From Nostoc sp. FACHB-280 (lineage in GTDB: Bacteria > Cyanobacteriota > Cyanobacteriia > Cyanobacteriales > Nostocaceae): a stretch of DNA of 64,000 bases. Position numbers and translations under genes: made by a program. This document shows positions 24,402-56,969 of this stretch, in pieces (the first letter of the stretch is position 1; each line of letters starts with the position of its first letter). A model generated the notes under the pieces. The model was not told where the DNA came from. It did no database searches and saw only the letters and a program-made list of their open reading frames with translations. The DNA lies in NCBI RefSeq assembly GCF_014697615.1, contig NZ_JACJSD010000017.1, positions 62,001 to 126,000 on the forward strand. The letters are read 5' to 3'.

Positions 24402-25835
24402 TTAATTTCTGGTTTGGCGCGGTGTAGAATTCGCTTCACCTGTTTCGGAGAGAATTGAAAGACGTACAGAATTGCCATCTTTTAACGGTCTACCACTGCG
24501 AGTTACGTAGCGTTCTCCTGGTTGTAAACCTGATAAAATTTCGACTTTGCTGTCGGCTTGTTTGCCCAAGGTAACGGTACGCGCTTTGACTGTTGGCTTG
24601 CCTTGGGTATCTGTAACTACAAATATGGTGCCATCTGTCTGGTTTTCCGCAGGTTGTTTGGCTGTGGCTGGTTTTTGAATTGCGGTTTGGGGAATGACAA
24701 CTCGTGGTTGGGTTAAGGTAGCAAAATTCACTCGCGCTAACAGTCCGCTACCAATATTACCGTTACTGTTGGGAACTTCCACTTCTACGGGAATGAGCCT
24801 TGCTGTCGCATCGGCGGCGGGAGATATGCGGATGACTCTACCCGTTAAGGTTGTTTGGGGAAAGGCATCTAACCGTACTTGTACAGATTGCCCAAGTTTA
24901 ATTTTTGCCAGTTCTAACTCGGAGACTTGAACAACAACTTTAACGCGGCTGAAGTCGCCAATTTGTAAAACTTCACCACCTGCTTGCAACAGGTTGCCTG
25001 GTTCTGTAACTTTGCCTGTAACTACGCCACTGATGGGGGAAACTAGTCGGGAGTAAGAACGGCGTTCTTTGGCTTGTGCCACTACTGCTTGTTGTGCCAA
25101 GACTCTTCCTTGGGCGGCGGCGACGGCTTGCTGTTCTGTACGGACTTGCTCTGTGGCAGCTCGTAAGGCTTGGGCGGCTGTTTGGGCTTGAGTACCTGCT
25201 TGTTCAGCAGTTTGCTCGGCGATCGCACCTTCTCTGTATAATTTTTGTTGTCTTTCGGAGTCGGCTTGGGCTTGCACAAGTTGTAACCGCAATCTTTCCA
25301 CTTCGGCACGGGCGTTACTTACCTGGGTTACAGCTCTCGCTACTTCCGATTTTTGGGCGGCGAGTTCGGCTTCGGCTTGTTTTAAATCTGTAAGCAGCAA
25401 AGTATCGTCTAACTGGCCAATATTCTGCCCTTTGCTGATTCGATCACCGACATCTACATTTAAGGATAATAGTCGCGCTTCTACCTGCGATCGCAACGAT
25501 ACGGTACGAAAGGGGATAGTTGTACCTGGATACTCTAAGGGCTTTTCTAGTGTATCTGTACGGGCGATCGCTACATCTACAGGTGTCGCACCACCTCGTT
25601 CTCCTCCTCGACGTTGTTGTGATTGCGCTTCGGCTGTGTCTTTCGGTAAAGAAGCACAACTAGCTGACAACAATCCTGTGCTGAATAAACACACAAATAA
25701 TGATGTGACTTTCCATATTTGCTTGTGGGGAAACATCCGCTGGTTGATTAAGTTTCCTGAGTGAATTTTGGTGGTTAAATCTAACTGGCTATTCATCACT
25801 TGGATTGGAGCTATGTAGGTTTGCTGTTTCATCAA
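24402..25835 (-). CDS. RND efflux periplasmic adaptor (membrane fusion protein)
   Basis: Adaptor that bridges the RND pump and outer-membrane channel. A hydrophobic export segment with a Cys (SLFVCLFSTGLLSASCAS, about residues 45-62) suggests membrane or lipid anchoring, although the lipobox is not ideal. Next come the barrel/lipoyl half PFRTVSLRSQVEARLL and VGDRISKGQNIGQLDD, a long coiled coil (about 130-270, Ala/Gln/Glu rich), and the second lipoyl half YSRLVSPISGVVTGKVTEPG. The beta-barrel and membrane-proximal domains end with ILSGLQPGERYVTRSGRPLK. The start shown is the longest. An internal ATG at about 25736 (MFPHKQIWKV) would place the export signal at the very N-terminus and may be the true start. 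Confidence 0.92.
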   Translation of the reverse strand: MMKQQTYIAPIQVMNSQLDLTTKIHSGNLINQRMFPHKQIWKVTSLFVCLFSTGLLSASCASLPKDTAEAQSQQRRGGERGGATPVDVAIARTDTLEKPLEYPGTTIPFRTVSLRSQVEARLLSLNVDVGDRISKGQNIGQLDDTLLLTDLKQAEAELAAQKSEVARAVTQVSNARAEVERLRLQLVQAQADSERQQKLYREGAIAEQTAEQAGTQAQTAAQALRAATEQVRTEQQAVAAAQGRVLAQQAVVAQAKERRSYSRLVSPISGVVTGKVTEPGNLLQAGGEVLQIGDFSRVKVVVQVSELELAKIKLGQSVQVRLDAFPQTTLTGRVIRISPAADATARLIPVEVEVPNSNGNIGSGLLARVNFATLTQPRVVIPQTAIQKPATAKQPAENQTDGTIFVVTDTQGKPTVKARTVTLGKQADSKVEILSGLQPGERYVTRSGRPLKDGNSVRLSILSETGEANSTPRQTRN

Positions 25836-31469: not shown

Positions 31470-32996
31470 ATGTCGGAAGAAGATATCCGTGCCGCGAGGC
31501 TGGAAAAAGTAGACCAGATTAAGCAGTTAGGGACTAATCCCTACGCCTATCGTTGGGAATCCACCCATAACGCCGCCCAATTGCAAGAAAAATTTGCTGA
31601 TTTAGCTAGTGGTGAAGAAGTTGATTTAGAAGTTGCGATCGCAGGGCGCATCATGGCGCGGCGTGTTTTCGGTAAACTAGCATTTTTCACCTTGCAAGAC
31701 GAAACCGGCAGCATACAGCTTTATCTGGAGAAAAATCGCATCCAAGAAAGCATGGCAGAAATTGATGCTGAAGCTTTCAACCACCTGAAACAACTCACAG
31801 ATGCAGGCGATATTCTGGGAGTTAAAGGCACGATTAAACGGACTGAAAAGGGCGAGTTATCAGTCTACGTCAAACAATACACTATCCTGACTAAATCCCT
31901 TCTGCCTCTACCCGACAAGTGGCATGGATTAACAGATGTTGCCAAACGCTACCGTCAGCGATATGTTGACTTGATTGTTAACCCCGAAGTCCGCCAAACT
32001 TTTCGCCGTCGCGCCCAAATTACCGCAGGTATTCGCCGCTATTTAGAACAGCGCGATTTTCTCGAAATTGAAACGCCTGTTTTGCAAAGTGAAGCTGGTG
32101 GTGCAGATGCACGTCCTTTCATCACCTACCACAACACTTTAGAAATGGAACTGTATCTGCGAATTGCCACAGAACTCCATCTCAAGCGGTTGATTGTTGG
32201 TGGGTTTGAAAAAGTGTTTGAAATGGGACGGATTTTCCGCAATGAAGGAATTTCCACCAGACACAACCCTGAATTTACCTCAATTGAAATTTACCAAGCT
32301 TACGCCGACTACAACGATATGATGGCGCTGATGGAAGGCATTATTACTACCGTCGCCCAAGAAGTTCTCGGCACATTGCAAATTACCTACCAAGGTGAAA
32401 CTGTAGATTTAACACCACCTTGGCGACGGGTGACAATGCACGACTTAGTTAAAGAAGTCACAGGCCTAGACTTTAATTCCTTCCAAAGTTTGTCAGATGC
32501 CAAAGCCGCAGCTAAAAATGCGGGGATTCCTGGTACAGATGAAGCCCAATCAATTGGTAAGTTACTCAATTTAGCTTTTGAAGAAAAGGTAGAAACAAAT
32601 TTAATTCAACCTACCTTTGTCATTGACTATCCTGTAGAAATTTCGCCACTCGCAAAACCGCACCGTTCTCAACCGGGTTTGGTAGAACGATTTGAGTTAT
32701 TTATTGTGGGACGCGAAACTGCTAACAGCTTCTCAGAATTAACAGACCCCATCGACCAAAGAGAACGTTTAGAAGCCCAAGCCGCCCGCAAAGCTGCTGG
32801 TGACTTAGAAGCCCAAGGTGTAGATGAAGACTTTCTCACCGCCCTGGAATATGGAATGCCACCTACAGGCGGTTTAGGTATTGGCATTGATCGGTTAGTC
32901 ATGTTATTAACTGACTCTGCAAGCATTCGGGATGTCATCGCTTTCCCCTTACTCAAGCCGGAAAAATCAGAAGCATCCGCAGAAGCAGCAAGTTAA
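31470..32996 (+). CDS. lysS: Lysyl-tRNA synthetase (class II)
   Basis: Charges tRNA-Lys. At 508 residues it has the class II LysRS order: N-terminal OB-fold anticodon domain ([20 protein letters not shown]), motif 1 region ([29 protein letters not shown]), motif 2 ([20 protein letters not shown]) and motif 3 ([15 protein letters not shown]). All three motifs are intact. The start [14 protein letters not shown] is family-like. A very strong terminator lies directly behind the stop, so lysS is probably monocistronic. Confidence 0.97.
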
Positions 32997-33155: not shown

Positions 33156-33890
33156 TTAAATTTGCACCACAATTCTCATTTCCTCCAGTTTTTGCTGCAA
33201 CCAACTAGCAAACAAATCTCTAAGAATTTTGCAGCGTAATTCTTCATCTAAATGAGGCTGAATAATTTCTTCAACCCAAATCAGATGAACTCCTTTATGT
33301 GTGAGAATGGGCTTAAGAATCTGTGGCGGATGAGCAGTAAAAACATAATTAGCAATCTCTGGCATCACATCACTACGATATCTGATTCCACAATATCCAC
33401 CTACACGACGTAATTCTGGTTCTTGGATGTATTGTTGAGCAAGATTTTGGAAAGATATATGATTTTCTTGCAGGTCATAAAATAGCTTCCAAGCTAAGTC
33501 TTCGTCATCTAAAACAACTTCATAAGTGACAGACTTAGCATAATCAAGTTGATGTGCAGCAAAGAAAGGTTCGACTTGTTCGGCAAAAAGATAATCAGCT
33601 AACTTGGCAGAAAGTAAAGAAACTTGAACTAATTCTTTGAACTCATTGAGAGACAGATAATGTTTTTCTAGCCATAATGCAGTATCTTTAGCTTTGATAA
33701 GTTTTTTAGCCAAACGTATTTTATCTGCTGTCTGCTGAAGCTCTCCTGCTTGAATATTGATATCTGCTTGATGAGCAGCATTAGTAATGATCTTGCGAGT
33801 TGCGATCGCCGCAATTATATCTGGAAGTTGGCAGGAAAGCTTGAGTTGATACAATATATCTTCAGAAGAGATAGTGTAAAAATCATTCAT
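33156..33890 (-). CDS. Parvulin-type peptidylprolyl isomerase
   Basis: A 244-residue protein with an N-terminal helical SurA/PrsA-like region (about 1-110) and a C-terminal rotamase region. The latter is recognised by ENHISFQNLAQQYIQEPELR, GGYCGIRYRSD, MPEIANYVFTAHPPQILKPI and KGVHLIWVEEIIQP. No signal peptide is seen, so it is cytoplasmic unless exported by another route. In cyanobacteria such isomerases often accompany double-glycine-leader peptides and their exporters, which fits the peptide gene upstream. It starts 28 bases after the helix-turn-helix gene and is therefore in one operon with it. Probable role: folding or presenting the secreted peptide (inference). Confidence 0.82.
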   Translation of the reverse strand: MNDFYTISSEDILYQLKLSCQLPDIIAAIATRKIITNAAHQADINIQAGELQQTADKIRLAKKLIKAKDTALWLEKHYLSLNEFKELVQVSLLSAKLADYLFAEQVEPFFAAHQLDYAKSVTYEVVLDDEDLAWKLFYDLQENHISFQNLAQQYIQEPELRRVGGYCGIRYRSDVMPEIANYVFTAHPPQILKPILTHKGVHLIWVEEIIQPHLDEELRCKILRDLFASWLQQKLEEMRIVVQI

Positions 33891-33918
33891 TAATTTATTC
33901 CTGTTTGAAAAATACCCT

Positions 33919-34533
33919 TTATTGAGGAGTATTCACAAAATTGAATAATTCTTCTAAACTGTTAGGCTCAGAAATTAATTGCAAATCACATATTACAATT
34001 TCGGCATCTTGAATATTGTGAGTTTCTTGTTGCGGTATGTTATTTTTTTGTTTTGTTGACAGTCCCATTTTTTTAAGTAAACGACTAATGTGACGTTCGG
34101 TAATTTTAATTCCCATTTCATTCGCTAAATGTTTGCTTAACCATTGTGCCGTCCAGTTTCTAAATGGGTAGCCATATTCACAAGGGCTATGAGTGACTAA
34201 TTCTCTTAAGCGGTCGAGATATTGCTCATTAATACTCTTTGGCCGTCCTATTTTTTGTTCTTGCCATTGGTGAGCTAACCCAGCTTTAGCAACACTAGTC
34301 CAATATCTTGCCATGTGGTAGGAACAGCCTAATATTTGACAAATTTTGCTTGGAGATTTACCTTGATCTGCCAGCAACATAATTTCGATGCGACGATGAT
34401 ATTCAGGTTGTAAATTTGTTTGCAGACTTTTCAGCAATACTTTTTTTTGAAAAGGGGTTAAAAACTTACTAACATTAACGTTATAAACTTCTAAATGTGG
34501 AAATTGATTAATTTCATGTGGCATAGCTTTCAA
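33919..34533 (-). CDS. Helix-turn-helix protein related to IS630-type DNA-binding domains
   Basis: A 204-residue protein with a two-part DNA-binding region. First is KVLLKSLQTNLQPEYHRRIE and MLLADQGKSPSKICQILGCS, followed by HMARYW (helix-turn-helix about 60-85). Second is a winged-helix-like EYGYPFRNWTAQWLSKHLAN, then EMGIKITERHISRLLKKMGL. This pair resembles the N-terminus of IS630-family transposases, but no DDE catalytic domain follows, so it looks like a domesticated regulator. The acidic C-terminus (LQLISEPNSLEELFNFVNTP) is unlike transposases. It sits between the GG-peptide gene and the isomerase gene and may regulate them. Confidence 0.78.
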   Translation of the reverse strand: MKAMPHEINQFPHLEVYNVNVSKFLTPFQKKVLLKSLQTNLQPEYHRRIEIMLLADQGKSPSKICQILGCSYHMARYWTSVAKAGLAHQWQEQKIGRPKSINEQYLDRLRELVTHSPCEYGYPFRNWTAQWLSKHLANEMGIKITERHISRLLKKMGLSTKQKNNIPQQETHNIQDAEIVICDLQLISEPNSLEELFNFVNTPQ

Positions 34534-34737
34534 AACCTTATCACAAGAGAAAAACTGTCTAAATTGCTCTTTTTTATTAAAGTAAATTTCTAGGCTAAAT
34601 AGTTAAATATCTGATAGGTTGATTAGCTTCAATGTTAGTTAAACACTTTTGTCAGTCACAGCCATAAATAGGAGTAAATTAAATAGCTGATGTGTGACAT
34701 AATTTCTGTCCCTGGAAAGATTTAAATTAATATTGAA

Positions 34738-34895
34738 TGACTTACAGAACTTACACAAGAACACGCTAAAATCCTCTTAACTTCGTGTTCTATTCTTCAA
34801 GACACAGAACGGAGAATAGGAAGCTGTTTGCGAGTCTAAATTTTTTCATGATTTTGCGTAATACCAATTCACGAAATTACTGATACAAATCAATT
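34738..34895. repeat. Dispersed Nostoc-type intergenic repeat (degenerate)
   Basis: This stretch contains ACTTACAGAACTTACAC-type and TTTTTCATGATTTTGCGTAA text, then ATACCAATTCACGAA and TGATACAAAT (34861-34890). The last part also occurs inverted at about 61995-62030. I recognise it as the kind of non-coding repeat common between Nostoc genes; boundaries are approximate. Confidence 0.5.
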
Positions 34896-34981
34896 CCTTT
34901 ACTTGTGCATTTGTATTATTTTTAAATTTGAACGGTAAAAGTTTTAACTAATATCGTATTTAGCTGAGGGAAACTCATAAC

Positions 34982-35022
34982 AAAAAAATCCTTAGCCTAA
35001 GATCAGAACTTAAAGCTAAGGA
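34982..35022 (-). terminator. Terminator of the GG-peptide gene
   Basis: On the minus strand TCCTTAGC (35015-35022) and GCTAAGGA (34989-34996) form an 8-bp stem with an 18-base loop, followed directly by seven U residues. It lies about 120 bases past the peptide stop and would make the peptide a separate short transcript, with only read-through reaching the helix-turn-helix gene. Confidence 0.75.
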
Positions 35023-35143
35023 CATTGATTAAAGGCTAACAATCATCAATAAAGCTGATTAATTAGAGCAGGATCAAGAAATTATGAACTTCATCCTACT
35101 CATGAGTTTATGAAACTAAAATTCAGCGGTTGATTGCTGAATT

Positions 35144-35440
35144 CTACTCAGTAGTACCGCCGCCAGCACCACCACCATTACCAGTACCACCGCCGCCACC
35201 AGCAGCGCCTCCGTTACCAAGACCGCCACCACCAACAGCCGCACTAAATGTCTTAGCAATGGAAACAATATTATTTAGTGCATACACATTGATACCAAAT
35301 TCCAGTAATTTCTCGATGCCAGGGCCATATCCTCCCTGCAAGTTCATAGAATCTGTATCAGCAAGGTCTTGCAGAAAACTTTCAGAATCTATGAACAATT
35401 CAGAACCAGTAGGATTCAAGGTATGCTTCTTGATATTCAT
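35144..35440 (-). CDS. Double-glycine-leader, glycine-rich secreted peptide precursor
   Basis: A 98-residue precursor likely exported by a peptidase-containing ABC transporter. The leader (residues 1-37) ends LQDLADTDSMNLQGG with Leu at -12 and -4 and Gly-Gly at -2/-1, the consensus for class II bacteriocin and microcin leaders. The predicted mature 61-residue peptide starts YGPGIEKLLEFGINVYALNN, has a central amphipathic helix, and ends in a Gly-rich tail (about residues 70-94) of GGGGLGNGG-type repeats. A strong Shine-Dalgarno GGAGG lies 10 bases before the ATG, and a terminator follows. A helix-turn-helix protein and a parvulin isomerase are downstream. No Cys is present, so it is not a lantipeptide. 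Function (toxin, signal or surface peptide) is unknown. Confidence 0.78.
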   Translation of the reverse strand: MNIKKHTLNPTGSELFIDSESFLQDLADTDSMNLQGGYGPGIEKLLEFGINVYALNNIVSIAKTFSAAVGGGGLGNGGAAGGGGGTGNGGGAGGGTTE

Positions 35441-35638
35441 GATGATTTTTCCTCCAATTATCTGTGGAACAAAAAGCTAGTTTTTTGTAATTAAGCTTTA
35501 TTGGCTTAACCTTACATTTGCATTATTAGCCTTCAAACTTCGATTTACAAGCAGAAAAACGAGATTGATTCGACACAATTTGACTAATTATGTCGAGGTA
35601 AATATTGAGTAGATATGGTTGAAATTGATATTCCAATT

Positions 35639-35668: not shown

Positions 35669-36052
35669 ATATATCTATATATAGCAGGGTATTAATGAAC
35701 GATTAATTATCAAGATTATGAGAAATTATCGACAATTCAGAAGGATTTTTCCCAAAAATTTTCTTAGTACAATGTTCAATCTTGCTCTGCCAATTCTTCT
35801 TTGTAGAATCAGCACTAGTTTGTAGTTTTGAGAAAAATGTATAAATTGCCAATCAATTGCCGAGACATAATTAGTAAAGTTTTGTCTTTAAAAGGGAGAA
35901 ATAACCGTGATGTAACTCATTGAAACACCTCATATAGATTTAGCCAAGATATCAGGATATTTGGCAAATATGAATGATTTGTTATAGACATACTCAACTT
36001 ATTAAGGGACTTCCAGAAAATAAATTATCTAATAATGAAGAGTAAAGACAAT

Positions 36053-36223: not shown

Positions 36224-36940
36224 CTAAGCACTGGTTGCTTCCGGCAATTCAAATTTATAACCATAGCCTCGAACTGTCTTAATAAATTCAGGTACATTTT
36301 GATCAACTTCTAGTTTCTTGCGTAGTTGACCAATATGTACGTCAACAACACGTCCATCACCCACATAGTCGCAACCCCAAATTTTTTGAATAAGTTGTGG
36401 ACGACTCCAAGCTTGTCCAGGGTGACTTGCCAAAAAATGTAAAATATTAAACTCTAGAGCTGTTAAATTTAGGGGTTTATCATTGAGTGTAACTTCTCTA
36501 CCTTCTGGGTTAATTGCTAATTGCTTAAATACCAAGCGTTGTACAGGTGATGGGTTGATAGAACGGATACGTCTTAAAAGTGCTTGTACTCTGACTTCTA
36601 CCTCCGCCAGACTAAATGGTTTAGTCAAAAAGTCATCAGCACCAGCCGAAAGAATTTTAATTTTATCTTCTTCCGCATTTCTACTGGTTAGTATCATTAC
36701 TAGGACGTTCGTGCGACTCTGCATTTCTTCGCACAAATTGTAGCCACTAATATCTGGTAAATTCCAATCTAAGATGACTAAAGCTGGATTGAATTGCTCG
36801 AACAACGATAAAGCCGTTTTGCCATCTGCCGCAGACTCTATTTGATATTTACGGCCGAGAAAACGATAGATAAGATTACGGACACCAAAGTCGTCATCTA
36901 CAACAAGAATTTTGGGGTTTGTAGCAGGAAGCATGACCAT
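36224..36940 (-). CDS. OmpR/PhoB-family response regulator
   Basis: A 238-residue DNA-binding response regulator. The receiver (about 9-125) has KILVVDDDFGVRN, the phosphoacceptor Asp in LVILDWNLPDISGYN, MILTSRNAE and FLTKPFSLAEVE. The C-terminal winged helix (about 140-235) has LNLTALEFNILHFLASHPGQ and GDGRVVDVHIGQLRKKLE, then TVRGYGYKFE. All phosphorylation residues are present. No sensor kinase is adjacent. The target genes are unknown. The divergent neighbour across 520 bases is the NACHT gene. Confidence 0.93.
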   Translation of the reverse strand: MVMLPATNPKILVVDDDFGVRNLIYRFLGRKYQIESAADGKTALSLFEQFNPALVILDWNLPDISGYNLCEEMQSRTNVLVMILTSRNAEEDKIKILSAGADDFLTKPFSLAEVEVRVQALLRRIRSINPSPVQRLVFKQLAINPEGREVTLNDKPLNLTALEFNILHFLASHPGQAWSRPQLIQKIWGCDYVGDGRVVDVHIGQLRKKLEVDQNVPEFIKTVRGYGYKFELPEATSA

Positions 36941-37463: not shown

Positions 37464-39833
37464 ATGACCAGCCAAGGACTCAGAGCTTCTTCAGAAGGTA
37501 TTAGAGCTGCAAAAACAGCTTTAACTGACAAAACTTTAAGCCAACACAAATTAGCAATAGCTTTAGGTATTACGCGTCAACCAGTATCTAAGTTTTTTGC
37601 AGGGGAACCAGTTTCTCGCAGTTGCTTTGTACAAATTTGTCAACATTTAGGGTTATCTTGGCAAAAAATTGCTGGGTTGCCGGAAGATATAATTTCAGAC
37701 ACGAGTGCTAAATCACAAACTAATCATAAAGATTTAAATATATTGGTGCAGGAAATACGTCAAAAGCGCCAAGACAAAATTCAAGACAAGTGCGGTAGTT
37801 TACAAATGATGGATATTGCTCGAACAATTCCATTGCTTGATATATATACACCTATATATGTATTAGACAAAATTACAAGTCAAAGATGGCTGGAAATTGA
37901 TGATTTAGTAAAAGAATGTGTTTCTGAATCAGGCTTTAACCAAAAAAAATTACTAGGTTCAGAAGTAGCATCACTTTACTCGAAGTTGATGGTAATGAGT
38001 AAACCATGCACAGGTAAAACTACATTCTTAAAATATTTAGCGATTGAGTGTAATCAAGGCGAATTCCAACCAAATTATGTAGCTATTTTTATTAGCCTCA
38101 AAGACTTTGCTGAAGACTTTAAAGATAATAATAATTTTAGTTTGTTGAAGTATATTAGCCAAGAATTTGTGAGTTGTGGGATTGACACAGAATCAACGCA
38201 AAATATCTTAACTGAAGGTAAAGCGTTGATTTTATTAGATGGGTTAGATGAGATACCTACGGGAGATATAAATCGAGTTAATCAAGAGATTCGGCGATGT
38301 TCTCAGACTTATTACAAAAATCGATTTGTAATTAGCTGTCGCATCGGGGTGCAGAAGTATAAGTTTCCTGGATTTACTGAGGTTGAAATTGCTGATTTTG
38401 ATATGCAGCAAGTCGAAACTTTTGTGAAGCAATGGTTCTTAGCAGTTGCCAATGAGTCTAAAGAAGATGGGGAATCTATAGGAAATTTATTCATTCATCA
38501 ATTGCATTTGCCTGAAAATAAGCAATTACGAGAATTAGCGATCGCACCAATATTATTACATCTGGTTTGTTTATTCTTTCACACAAAATCTGAATTTACA
38601 TTTAAATTAGCTAAGTTATATGAAGCTGCCTTGAATATTTTGCTTGGTAGATGGGATGAAGTGAGAGGGGTTCACAGGCAGTCAATTACAGAGAATTTCA
38701 AATTATTGAATCCGAAAAAGTTCTTGGCGCAAATAGCTGCTATTACTTTTGAATCGGGAGAGAATTTTTTTGAGCAGGAACAAATACAATCTTTAATATA
38801 TCAATATTTATGTAAATATCATTACTGTAGTGCCACTAACTTAGAATTAGTAAATCGGCAGTGGCAAGATAGTGAAACATTGTTAAAAAAAATGGAGGTA
38901 GAGTATGGTTTATTGGTGCAGCGATCGCACGGTATTTACTCTTTCTCTCATTTGGCTTTACAAGAGTATTTAACTGCGAAACATTTTGTCATCAATTACC
39001 AAGAACAGTCTGTGAATCAGCTAGTTAATCACATTGCCGAAAAACGCTGGCAAAATGTTTTCTTGCTGACTGTAAGTATGTTACCCAATGCGTCAGAAAT
39101 GCTGCGGTTAATGAAACAAAAAATAGATAATTTAGTGACTGATGACCAGAAGATTCAAGATTTCCTGTTTTGGCTCAATCAAAAGTCAAATTCAGTGGCT
39201 ACTCAATATAAAGCGGGTGCAATTCGGGCTTTTTATTTAGTTTGTGTTGGTCGCGTGTTAGAACTGTGTTCGCCAGCAAGTAATTGTCCTCAACAGCAAG
39301 TATTTGGTAATTCATCTAGTTATGGTCTGGAGCGTGCTATTTTAGGTAATTTAGCATTCAACCCAGAACTGGCAATTGATGAGTTTCTAACTAGTACTTT
39401 TGCTTGTGCGGCTGAACTGGAATTTGCCTGTCATTATATTTTGAATGATGCTATTGTTTTTGACTACGCCCATGCGTTAAATATTGCCTTTGATAAAGCA
39501 CTGAATTTAGTTGTTGAATCTAAATTTAAACAATTTCTCTACAACCTCAAAAAACAATTACCAAATGCTCAAAATTATCCACATAAATTTCGTAAGTGGT
39601 GGATAGAACATGGTAAATTCTGGAGTGGAAAATTTAGGGAACTTCTAATTGAATACCGTAATATTTGTCATGACTGGCAGTTGAGTAAACAGCAAATTGA
39701 ATTAATTCAGCAATATTATGGTGCTAATAAATTACTGATAAACTGCCTGAATGCTGCCCAGAAGATTACACCTGCAATTCGAGAAGAAATAGAAGAGACT
39801 TTATTGTTAGGAATTGCAGAAACAAAAAACTGA
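37464..39833 (+). CDS. HTH-NACHT STAND NTPase
   Basis: A 789-residue protein with an N-terminal helix-turn-helix (about 25-70: HKLAIALGITRQPVSKFFAG) and a NACHT domain (about 170-340). The P-loop reads SKPCTGKTTFLKYLA, Walker B ALILLDGLDEIP, and a sensor-like RFVISCRIG follows. Winged-helix and helical segments (about 340-520: SFSHLALQEYLTAKHFV) come next, then a long helical C-terminus without clear repeats. It belongs to the STAND class of signal NTPases; bacterial NACHT proteins of this form include anti-phage defence proteins. No separate effector domain is visible, and the N-terminal HTH suggests DNA binding. It is a monocistronic gene between AT-rich spacers. A defence role is inference. 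Confidence 0.85.
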   Translation: MTSQGLRASSEGIRAAKTALTDKTLSQHKLAIALGITRQPVSKFFAGEPVSRSCFVQICQHLGLSWQKIAGLPEDIISDTSAKSQTNHKDLNILVQEIRQKRQDKIQDKCGSLQMMDIARTIPLLDIYTPIYVLDKITSQRWLEIDDLVKECVSESGFNQKKLLGSEVASLYSKLMVMSKPCTGKTTFLKYLAIECNQGEFQPNYVAIFISLKDFAEDFKDNNNFSLLKYISQEFVSCGIDTESTQNILTEGKALILLDGLDEIPTGDINRVNQEIRRCSQTYYKNRFVISCRIGVQKYKFPGFTEVEIADFDMQQVETFVKQWFLAVANESKEDGESIGNLFIHQLHLPENKQLRELAIAPILLHLVCLFFHTKSEFTFKLAKLYEAALNILLGRWDEVRGVHRQSITENFKLLNPKKFLAQIAAITFESGENFFEQEQIQSLIYQYLCKYHYCSATNLELVNRQWQDSETLLKKMEVEYGLLVQRSHGIYSFSHLALQEYLTAKHFVINYQEQSVNQLVNHIAEKRWQNVFLLTVSMLPNASEMLRLMKQKIDNLVTDDQKIQDFLFWLNQKSNSVATQYKAGAIRAFYLVCVGRVLELCSPASNCPQQQVFGNSSSYGLERAILGNLAFNPELAIDEFLTSTFACAAELEFACHYILNDAIVFDYAHALNIAFDKALNLVVESKFKQFLYNLKKQLPNAQNYPHKFRKWWIEHGKFWSGKFRELLIEYRNICHDWQLSKQQIELIQQYYGANKLLINCLNAAQKITPAIREEIEETLLLGIAETKN

Positions 39834-54821: not shown

Positions 54822-56969
54822 ATGCCTTACGAAAACTTAGAAATTAACACACAAACACCCGTTTTATCTTGGGCAAATCATCCTTTAGCAAGTGATGAAA
54901 CCAAGATGGCGCAAAATGTGGCATCACTACCATTTGTATTTAAACACGTCGCCTTAATGCCAGATGTGCATTTAGGAAAAGGTGCTTTAGTTGGTTCTGT
55001 AATTGCTACCAAAGATGCCATCATTCCTGCTGCCGTGGGCGTGGATATTGGTTGTTTTATAGGAGATACTTTAGTTCCTTTAGTTGATGGAAAATATTAT
55101 CGTATTCAAGAATTAGCAGAGCAATATCAAGAGTTTATTGTTTATGCTTGCACTCCTACAGGCAGAATAGTTGCATCTACAGCAACCGCAAAATTGACTA
55201 GAAAAAATGCACCACTTGTCAAGGTTATTTTAGATAATGAAGAGGAAATTATTTGTACCCCTGATCATCAATTTATGCTTAGGGATGGTAATTATCAAGA
55301 AGCTGGATTACTGCAACCAGGAACTTCTCTGATGCCCTTTTATTCTAAAGTTGACAAAGAAGGCTATACCTTAATTTCTCAACCATATTCCCAACGATGG
55401 CAGAAAGCACATTGGATTATTGCTAGGTCTGGTTTACTAGGTGAAATTCCTAAATTTTTAGGACAAAGAACAGTTATTCATCATCGAAACTTCCAAGAAT
55501 CTGATAATAGACCAGAAAATTTGGAATTTATGGGTGCTAATGATCATTCTGCTTACCATCGTTCTTTAGTAGAGCAGAATCAGCATTGGCATTCTCCTGA
55601 ATTTGAACAGAAAAGAATTGCTGCCTTAGCTAAAAAAGCCCAAACTGTAGAGGGACATAATTATTACGCAGAAAGAGGCACTAAAAACATTATAAAATAT
55701 ATGCAGCAGCAACCAGAACATTTTAAAAATGCTGTTGCAGACAATGGAAATCGAGGGAAACAATATCTAATTACCTATAATACTAGTGAAGAGGGAAGAG
55801 CTAAGTCTAAGGAAATAGCGAATAGGTATTACACTTGTGAAATCTGTGGTGCAGAAGTAAAGACACCAATTGGTCTTCATAACCACCGTAAAAAAGAACA
55901 TCAATGTAATCACAAAGTGATAGCGGTTATCCCTTTAAATTACACAGAAGATGTTTATTGTTTGACAGTACCAGAATGTCACAACTTTGCTCTGAAAGCT
56001 GGAGTTTTTGTGCATAACTGCGGTATGTCTGCTATCAAAATGCCATTTAATGGCGATAAATTAGAAGGCAAACTTAAAAAAATTCGCCTTGATATTGAAG
56101 CGGCAATCCCCACAGGTTTCAACGAAAATAAAGAAATTGAAAAATCAGTTACTAACTGGCAACGTTGGCATGATTTTCAAGATTTGCACCCTGGTGTGCA
56201 GGACTTAGAAAATAAATCGATGAAACAAATGGGTTCTCTTGGCGGAGGAAATCATTTTATTGAAGTGTGCCTCGATACAGAGAACCAAGTTTGGCTAATG
56301 TTACATTCTGGTTCACGTAACATTGGGAATAAGTTAGCTCAATGTCACATTAATACAGCCAAAGAATTAGCCAAGATGGCAGGGAATAATTTACCTGATC
56401 CAGACTTAGCTTATTTTGTGGCAAATACACCAGAATTTCAAGCTTACTGGAATGATTTGCAGTGGGCGCAAGACTATGCACGTTTCAACCGCGATGTGAT
56501 GATGATGCGTTTTAAGCACATTATTGAAAAACATTTGGCGGGTGGAAAAGTAACTAAACCTTTATTGCAGGTAAATTGTCATCACAATTACGCCGAAAAA
56601 GAAGTACATTTTGGCGAAGATGTGTATGTCACTCGTAAAGGAGCAGTCCGCGCCCAGACAGAAGATTATGGGATTATTCCTGGTTCAATGGGGGCGAAAT
56701 CTTTCATTGTCAAAGGTAAGGGTAATGCTCATAGTTTCTGTTCTTGTAGTCATGGTGCTGGCAGATTATTATCCAGAAATAAAGCCAAAAATGTTTACAC
56801 ACTTGATGACTTAATTGAGCAGACTAAAGGTGTAGAATGCCGCAAAGATAATGATGTTTTAGATGAAATTCCAGGTGCTTATAAACCAATTGAGCAAGTA
56901 ATGGAAAATCAATCTGATTTAGTCGAAGTTGTGGCGACACTCAAGCAAGTTGTGTGTGTCAAGGGTTAA
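54822..56969 (+). CDS. RtcB-family RNA ligase with intein
   Basis: A 715-residue precursor. The exteins (residues 1-77 and 400-715) make a 393-residue RtcB-type protein, an RNA repair/tRNA ligase family: VALMPDVHLGKGALVGSVIA, then GVDIG-C (interrupted), CGMSAIKMPF, MGSLGGGNHFIEVC, HSGSRNIGN, LLQVNCHHNYAEKE and GSMGAKSFIVKGKG, then SFCSCSHGAGRLLS. The intein (78-399) sits exactly before the conserved metal-binding Cys of GVDIGCGM, so the ligase cannot work until it is spliced out. The family usually uses Mn2+ and GTP, and the metal/nucleotide residues listed are intact. This is the shorter 'RtcB family' type of about 390 residues, and ligase activity on tRNA is not certain. Confidence 0.92.
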   Translation: MPYENLEINTQTPVLSWANHPLASDETKMAQNVASLPFVFKHVALMPDVHLGKGALVGSVIATKDAIIPAAVGVDIGCFIGDTLVPLVDGKYYRIQELAEQYQEFIVYACTPTGRIVASTATAKLTRKNAPLVKVILDNEEEIICTPDHQFMLRDGNYQEAGLLQPGTSLMPFYSKVDKEGYTLISQPYSQRWQKAHWIIARSGLLGEIPKFLGQRTVIHHRNFQESDNRPENLEFMGANDHSAYHRSLVEQNQHWHSPEFEQKRIAALAKKAQTVEGHNYYAERGTKNIIKYMQQQPEHFKNAVADNGNRGKQYLITYNTSEEGRAKSKEIANRYYTCEICGAEVKTPIGLHNHRKKEHQCNHKVIAVIPLNYTEDVYCLTVPECHNFALKAGVFVHNCGMSAIKMPFNGDKLEGKLKKIRLDIEAAIPTGFNENKEIEKSVTNWQRWHDFQDLHPGVQDLENKSMKQMGSLGGGNHFIEVCLDTENQVWLMLHSGSRNIGNKLAQCHINTAKELAKMAGNNLPDPDLAYFVANTPEFQAYWNDLQWAQDYARFNRDVMMMRFKHIIEKHLAGGKVTKPLLQVNCHHNYAEKEVHFGEDVYVTRKGAVRAQTEDYGIIPGSMGAKSFIVKGKGNAHSFCSCSHGAGRLLSRNKAKNVYTLDDLIEQTKGVECRKDNDVLDEIPGAYKPIEQVMENQSDLVEVVATLKQVVCVKG
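55053..56018 (+). mobile_element. Intein with HNH endonuclease and C2H2-like motif
   Basis: A 322-residue self-splicing element. N-terminal splicing block A is CFIGDTLVPL (Cys1), block B TPDHQFML, block F EDVYCLTVPECHNFAL and block G GVFVHN followed by extein Cys. A homing-endonuclease-like HNH core lies at about residues 218-246 of the precursor (VIHHRNFQESDNRPENLEF, then DHSAYH). A Cys339-x2-Cys342-x12-His355-x4-His360 motif, zinc-finger-like, follows before the C-terminal splicing region. All splicing residues appear present, so it is probably active. Confidence 0.9.

Follow-up and report, generated by a model that had tools for sequence, protein, structure and literature searches.

How does a locus that encodes a secretion-type peptide persist without the genes that would secrete it, and what controls its expression? 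The question is raised by a 64,000 bp stretch of Nostoc sp. FACHB-280 DNA (the window; contig NZ_JACJSD010000017.1, positions 62,001 to 126,000), in which genes for a precursor with a double-glycine (GG) leader, a helix-turn-helix (HTH) protein and a parvulin-like protein lie together. An earlier note, made from the letters alone, had singled out this trio as a candidate secreted-peptide system. The answer that we consider reasonably probable is that it is a satellite precursor locus of the cyanobacterial C39/HlyD/SurA system, the peptide being exported in trans and transcription being controlled by the HTH protein acting on a dyad. Comparison with related loci shows the gene content, a series of reduced forms, selection on the three genes, and a dyad that is co-distributed with the HTH gene. 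The elements of the locus are as follows.

35144–35440, minus strand: GG-leader precursor of 98 aa, with leader (1–37), hydrophobic core (about 38–68) and Gly-rich tail (69–98)
33919–34524, minus strand: bipartite HTH protein of 201–204 aa, IS630/Tc1-type transposase-derived (ATG at 34524; TTG at 34533 possible)
33156–33890, minus strand: SurA/PrsA-like parvulin-domain protein of 244 aa, a distant TIGR04500 relative, 28 nt after the HTH gene
35572–35594, unstranded: proximal dyad, GACACAATT-TGACT-AATTATGTC, perfect; candidate operator, 131 bp before the precursor ATG
35864–35886, unstranded: distal dyad, one mismatch, about 424 bp before the precursor ATG

Reduced Relatives of the Locus

Seventy-five loci were located through the parvulin, and further loci were added later. 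Eleven of the 75 (L070–L080) have one or more precursors, the HTH and the parvulin, with no C39 exporter and HlyD next to them. The fullest of these layouts, precursor-LanK-LanY-HTH-parvulin, is found at L072, L073, L076–L079 and L168, and also at L080, which retains a 275 aa N-terminal fragment of the exporter. LanK is lost at L071, L145, L146 and L147. Both LanK and LanY are lost in the window, at L070/L151 and at L150, leaving precursor, HTH and parvulin, and at L148 and L149 the precursor and the HTH stand alone inside the 18 kb fetched. The flanks, a response regulator gene and lysS, are common to several orthologous loci. The trio in the window is thus real and conserved together, as the earlier note's reading required, but what that note envisaged as a system is a larger, known kind of cluster in reduced form, without its exporter.

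In a maximum-likelihood tree of 30 HTH rows, a branch with support 93/94 separates the 16 exporter-less rows from the rest. This branch recurs in 92% of the bootstrap trees, and its neighbour is the complete cluster L081. The tree is consistent with a single loss of the exporter genes. The window groups with L070 and L150, and since both also lack LanY, the loss of LanY in the window's branch was probably a single event; LanK may have been lost more than once. In the history that we propose, an ancestral complete cluster would have lost its exporter genes, and the window's branch would then also have lost the LanK and LanY genes.

Complete Clusters and Proposed Export in trans

Exporters are plentiful elsewhere in the same genome (7.6 Mb in 113 contigs; G000 below). 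A C39-type exporter outside the locus was the other thing on which the earlier note had staked its reading, and the genome has 10 C39-domain matches above the Pfam cut-off, together with 8 parvulin and 4 HTH matches (the window's included). HTH, C39-ABC exporter, HlyD and parvulin occur together at three places, on contigs C26, C25 and C22. A Pfam/NCBIfam scan of the C26 proteins shows that the C26 exporter carries an N-terminal cNMP-binding domain. The C25 and C22 exporters are 73–75% identical to that of C26, the HlyD proteins 49%. C26 and C25 also hold HopA1/LanY-like and LanK-like genes (53% and 60% identical between the two), the LanK-like gene matching NF038156 at 83 bits vs. a cut-off of 315, and both contigs encode precursors that are related to the window's and share its leader.

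At the window locus itself, neither a C39 exporter nor a cluster-type HlyD was found, and a self-contained exporter system there was rejected for that reason. The HlyD-type protein encoded at 24402–25835 of the window belongs to an RND pump.

In the proposed pathway, the precursor would be made and then escorted by the SurA/PrsA-like partner protein; a paralogous exporter would cleave it behind the Gly-Gly and export it in trans. That exporter would most likely be of the C26 type, which is favored because its own precursors share the leader. The released peptide might be membrane-active or might serve as a signal. A full-length relative of the C26 exporter (66–98% identity) is present in 15 of the 16 other genomes with a reduced locus; in the 16th, G157, it is in two pieces. 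Weighing against this use of co-occurrence, an exporter of the C26 type with at least 91% identity is found in 9 of 11 genomes of the genus (one of them split), and a 67% relative in a tenth, whether or not the locus is present. As the exporter is common in the genus regardless of the locus, its co-occurrence with the locus proves little.

The complete clusters have features of their own. The C26 cluster (L032/L033; G000 C26:50001-78000) comprises HTH, C39 exporter, HlyD, two parvulins, LanY- and LanK-like genes and a mostly Cys-free precursor array; such a pairing of class V-type enzymes with precursors lacking Cys is unusual for a lanthipeptide cluster. On C25, L034 13074-14602 encodes three precursors, beside LanY/LanK, that are rich in Thr/Pro and end in TWYC; two of the three are near-identical. 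These are candidate class V-like lanthipeptides whose only Cys is C-terminal.

Could the window peptide borrow modification enzymes as well as an exporter? It might be modified in trans by the LanK/LanY of another cluster, through Ser/Thr dehydration in a K-[ST]-x-[ST] motif, and so be a Cys-free cousin of the class V lanthipeptides; we regard this as possible but rather doubtful. LanK and LanY do stand beside Cys-free relatives of the precursor in other genomes, and at loci without a nearby LanK, LanY shows purifying selection. The motif K[ST][FYIL][ST] is kept in 79 of 119 distinct precursor open reading frames (ORFs), the window's version being KTFS. It is missing from the other 40, however, and the window locus has neither a LanK nor a LanY gene and no Cys in the peptide core. 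Presence in trans is uninformative, as HopA1/LanY-like matches occur in 214 of 217 family genomes, more widely than matches to the precursor (150 of 217, with a leader-plus-core query).

The Dyad

The candidate operator is a 23 bp dyad, GACANAATT-N5-AATTNTGTC, with 16 fixed letters, resolved from a conserved block upstream of the precursor. The only sites in the whole genome with at most one mismatch are the two in front of the window precursor. With up to two mismatches there are 20 sites, 5 of them at the four HTH loci.

Among 17 reduced loci, the 32-base upstream block matches at 26 or more positions in 15. L148 and L149 match at 22 and 21 positions, and unrelated loci at 19–24; despite this weak block, L148 and L149 have perfect dyads at the same distance. 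The distal dyad (up to two mismatches) is present at all 17 reduced loci, some 400–800 bp upstream. On a larger scale, 45 loci (807 kb) contain 54 sites with up to two mismatches, or 50 without duplicates (L146 duplicates L074, and L147 duplicates L075), vs. 0.67 in shuffles; the control was three single-base shuffles within 200-base blocks. A site is found at 35 of the 45 loci.

In the 16 genomes (of the 217) with a reduced locus, the dyad at one mismatch occurs 57 times and the reversed pattern not once. Fifteen of these sites are at the reduced locus. The remaining 42 fall into 39 regions. In 13 of these, a leader-type precursor follows the site within 350 bp, and its core differs from that of the window precursor. 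A site lies 60–220 bp upstream of 18 of 119 ORFs matching the precursor profile and of 15 of 45 ORFs matching the leader pattern (one of them a chance ORF), vs. 28 of 2960 other ORFs of the same loci. In this count identical ORFs were counted once, 39 of the loci had been chosen for holding a site, and many rows are related. When the chance ORF and one site at 196 bp are set aside, 31 dyad-to-precursor distances are left, 11 at 109–116 bp and 20 at 125–143 bp, two clusters about two helical turns apart. The natural reading is that the dyad would be held at a fixed geometry to the promoter.

Mobile-element ends were considered as the origin of the dyads and judged unlikely, as the distance between sites varies. 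Palindrome variants ending GATATAATT...AATTATGTC are found at L192, L194, L199, L202, L203, L210, L213 and L220, all sites with no leader-type precursor nearby; perhaps they are the site of another regulator, or a repeat.

At the window, a weak predicted promoter (35550–35522) places the center of the proximal dyad near −68, a position that would fit an activator. That the HTH protein acts as an activator there is a guess. The promoter scan gave 19 matches vs. a shuffle mean of 12.2 and carries little weight.

The HTH Protein and the Dyad

Which protein would use the dyad? The association of HTH and dyad was scored at 61 full-length loci, 14 of the 75 being left out as too short. Twenty loci have both and 37 have neither, with two exceptions each way (Fisher p 8e-12, kinship ignored). 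Across the 217 genomes, at up to one mismatch and with the reversed dyad as the control, the 195 genomes with the HTH (E 1e-30) have 434 sites vs. 61 for the control, and the 22 without it have 3 vs. 9. Splitting the HTH matches at 1e-67, a cut-off set after the values had been seen, gives 392 vs. 32 (about 12-fold) in 136 genomes with a close HTH and 42 vs. 29 in 59 with a distant one, kinship again ignored. The contrast holds with and without a precursor match: in 67 precursor-negative genomes, the mean number of sites is 1.93 with a close HTH (n = 15), 0.62 with a distant one and 0.15 with none, and the close-HTH contrast is also seen among the 150 precursor-positive genomes, with kinship ignored in both.

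The spacer of the dyad follows the recognition helix. Where the helix reads CSYHMARYW, the spacer is CTAATT or AATTAG at 16 of 17 loci (the exception is L071); where it reads CSQEMARYW, these spacers are found at 0 of 11. At L118 and L123, the HTH is degenerate and without its tail, and there is no dyad site. From the co-distribution, the position and the spacer that follows the recognition helix, we infer that the HTH protein binds the dyad as a candidate operator. Probably acting as a dimer, it would control both this precursor and other GG-leader precursors, in many cases through one dyad 109–143 bp 5′ of the start codon.

Several points weigh against the operator proposal. The dyad was defined on these very loci, so the upstream-block, 45-locus, 61-locus, spacer and precursor-distance results are partly circular. 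The 61-locus association is uncontrolled for phylogeny, a single split in the tree could account for the YH/QE spacer difference, and the 1e-67 cut-off was chosen as described above. The proximal dyad (up to two mismatches) is present at only 7 of the 17 reduced loci, and only a third of the regions around other sites, the 13 of 39 given above, have a precursor downstream. In the window's own genome, one mismatch gives 2 sites vs. 1 in the control, so that place, not number, is informative, and three mismatches give 143 vs. 99 in the reversed control, mostly background. The structural model of the HTH protein is of low confidence (pLDDT 66), and none of its fold matches reaches significance (Foldseek E 0.06–0.17).

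Some of these points would suit a different regulator that binds the dyad and merely shares the distribution of the HTH, the HTH itself serving something else, for example as a mobile-element remnant. We consider this unlikely. It would account for the 26 regions that have a site and no leader-type precursor, and for the placement of the window's only two sites in front of the precursor, with none 5′ of the HTH gene itself. However, sites follow the HTH with and without recognized precursors, they vary with its recognition helix, neither of the two degenerate HTHs has one beside it, and the neighboring response regulator adjoins some of the orthologous loci only.

The open-access literature searched contained no recognizable report of this HTH protein or of the dyad; PMC3141674 proved irrelevant to both. 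As far as these limited searches go, the putative regulator–operator pair is undescribed.

Selection and Possible Decay

The precursor, HTH and parvulin genes are, by their substitution ratios, under purifying selection. Between the window and its orthologues, dN/dS is 0.12–0.20 for the HTH (n = 7), 0.14–0.28 for the parvulin (n = 7) and 0.15–0.31 for the leader and core of the precursor (n = 6). For the neighboring response regulator it is 0.02–0.035 (n = 5), and thus the trio is under looser constraint than this housekeeping neighbor. One precursor pair, L072/L073, has dN/dS 2.47, on a dS of only 0.02. Between the window and L145, the core of the precursor has pN 0.014 vs. pS 0.50, and the leader pN 0.158.

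Two observations weigh against the satellite reading. The most conserved part of the precursor is the core in some comparisons and the leader in others: the core is ahead of the leader in 4 of 6 comparisons with the window, the leader in the other 2 (L072 and L073). In G157, the parvulin gene is in two frames and the C26-type exporter is in two places far apart. The former gene is the orthologue at L150 11709-12442, and the adjoining NACHT gene is likewise in two reading frames.

The gap between precursor and HTH was searched for remnants of lost genes (8 queries, 35 rows, E up to 5). The best hits are those of two near-relative LanK queries to window positions 34806-34687, on the right strand and in the right place but not significant (E 0.03 and 0.05). 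No convincing LanY or exporter remnant was found among the 35 rows.

That the trio is the not-yet-eroded remainder of a dying cluster, with no present function, would agree with the stepwise gene loss among relatives, the disrupted genes of G157 and the weak LanK-like piece (a LanK remnant or chance), but it is quite improbable given the dN/dS of 0.12–0.31 in all three genes vs. orthologues that also lack the exporter, the near-absence of amino acid changes in the core between the window and L145, and the retention of dyads at reduced loci. Purifying selection on the three genes in the absence of a local exporter makes a satellite locus served in trans the likeliest reading.

The Precursor

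With Leu at −12 and −4, the precursor leader runs to a Gly-Gly at 36–37, which leaves a mature part of 61 aa, and there is no Cys in the precursor, hence none in the core for lanthionine. The translation thus agrees with the consensus leader, Cys-free core and 61-residue peptide first described. Precursors 82–85% identical over leader and core are found in three other genomes of the genus, so the ORF is more than chance. The glycine-rich tail that the earlier note stressed is present in the window; among relatives it is variable in length and short or absent in some, and the conserved part is the hydrophobic core N-terminal to it. No Cys lies within the last 45 residues of 113 of the 119 distinct precursor ORFs.

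Two further signals flank the gene.

35451–35455, minus strand: Shine-Dalgarno sequence GGAGG, 10 nt 5′ of the precursor ATG (read from the sequence)
34978–35032, minus strand: hairpin resembling an intrinsic terminator, 3′ of the precursor gene (fold −15.7 kcal/mol, z −3.5, U7 after the stem)

The first is the ribosome site of the original description. The second makes a terminator of the gene's own plausible, although the hairpin is absent from the list of a consensus terminator scanner.

The HTH Protein

The HTH protein matches the N-terminal positions 1–120 of 299 of an IS630 transposase model, below the model's cut-off. The rest of the model is unmatched, and the DDE catalytic domain is missing. 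This partial match agrees with the proposal that the DNA-binding protein is transposase-derived. In its poor AlphaFold model, two helical units are visible; the Foldseek list is led by Pax-6, Pax-5 and paired, with Tc3 and SETMAR within the first ten. The protein ends in a tail, [IV]xIxDLQ; every one of the 22 ungapped rows has the I, D, L and Q of this motif. The tail resembles the start of the leader in many precursors, e.g., ARITISDL; that it is a leader mimic is only an idea. A more far-reaching version, which we regard as a long shot, is that a domesticated Tc1/IS630 transposase domain became the dedicated transcription factor of a GG-peptide regulon in a Nostoc-like family, parallel to Pax, and that its tail mimics leaders. 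Free leader and HTH protein would then compete for the maturation/export machinery, and transcription would be coupled to export capacity.

The Parvulin-like Protein

The parvulin-like protein, called a peptidylprolyl isomerase at first sight, does contain a Rotamase domain (Pfam 32.2 vs. a cut-off of 21.7). Its TIGR04500 score, 64 bits, is far under the curated cut-off of 180. A structure model built from 36 sequences (pLDDT 88) matches PrsA and SurA in Foldseek, the best E being 2.4e-10, to PrsA. Parvulin isomerases have two conserved catalytic histidines. Position 202 (motif GVHLI) is His in 22 of the 36 sequences and Tyr in 14, and the second catalytic histidine would presumably be expected where there is now an invariant Tyr, Y123. 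By its modelled fold, the protein more closely resembles a chaperone or partner protein of the SurA/PrsA type, with catalysis only putative.

Neighboring Genes

The following lie outside the locus; the first two are synteny markers.

36224–36940, minus strand: response regulator of the PhoB/OmpR type
31470–32996, plus strand: lysS, a gene that we take, on our own reading without a family search, to encode lysyl-tRNA synthetase
37464–39833: NACHT/NCH2 protein, which adjoins the response regulator in the orthologous loci that retain that flank
54822–56969: RtcB RNA ligase gene with an intein splicing domain

Relation to Known Systems

As described in the main text of Wang, Fewer and Sivonen (2011; PMC3140520), cyanobacterial bacteriocin clusters of groups I/II have a double-glycine precursor and a SurA/rotamase protein, both of which are also at the window locus. 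Their CAP_ED-C39-ABC exporter, HlyD and SurA/rotamase are common to the complete paralogues of this genome. The C26, C25 and C22 clusters correspond to these groups, two of them with class V-like LanK/LanY enzymes, whereas the window has no exporter, HlyD or modification enzyme. Incomplete clusters are already reported in that paper. The term "helix-turn-helix" occurs nowhere in its main text, "transposase" occurs once, on rearrangements, and its section 5 has no such dyad.

LanK/LanY-like genes, known from class V lanthipeptide systems (cacaoidin/lexapeptide; PMC9486802), also occur in the orthologous and paralogous clusters. The window locus has neither, and its precursor family is, as noted, mostly Cys-free (113/119). 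Cyanobacterial type-B LanA candidates are noted in that paper, from a set of ORFs selected for the presence of Cys (PMC9486802). Lanthipeptide membership of the window precursor was rejected, there being no Cys and no enzymes at the locus.

MirC, a PpiC-like protein (TIGR04500), is reported to be required as a partner protein in graspetide biosynthesis (PMC13097080). The window's parvulin-like protein has a SurA-like fold and is a distant TIGR04500 match, at 64 vs. 180 bits; by analogy, it may likewise be a partner protein. No graspetide synthetase was seen among the scanned cluster proteins, in a scan not aimed at such synthetases.

The HTH protein has two successive helical units in common with the DNA-binding domains of IS630/Tc1-mariner transposases, Pax/paired and Tc3. 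Unlike an IS630 transposase, it has no DDE domain and has the [IV]xIxDLQ tail instead.

Significance

The comparison suggests that what is new is the regulatory element and that the locus is a stripped-down form of a known peptide-secretion cluster. Nothing on the regulation of the abundant GG-leader peptides was met in the literature searched; here, there is a candidate regulator with a 23 bp candidate operator, a pair that is directly testable. Orphan precursors might also be traced through the operator in their promoter. Finally, the reduction series indicates which components of a cluster remain beside the peptide and which can apparently be supplied in trans.

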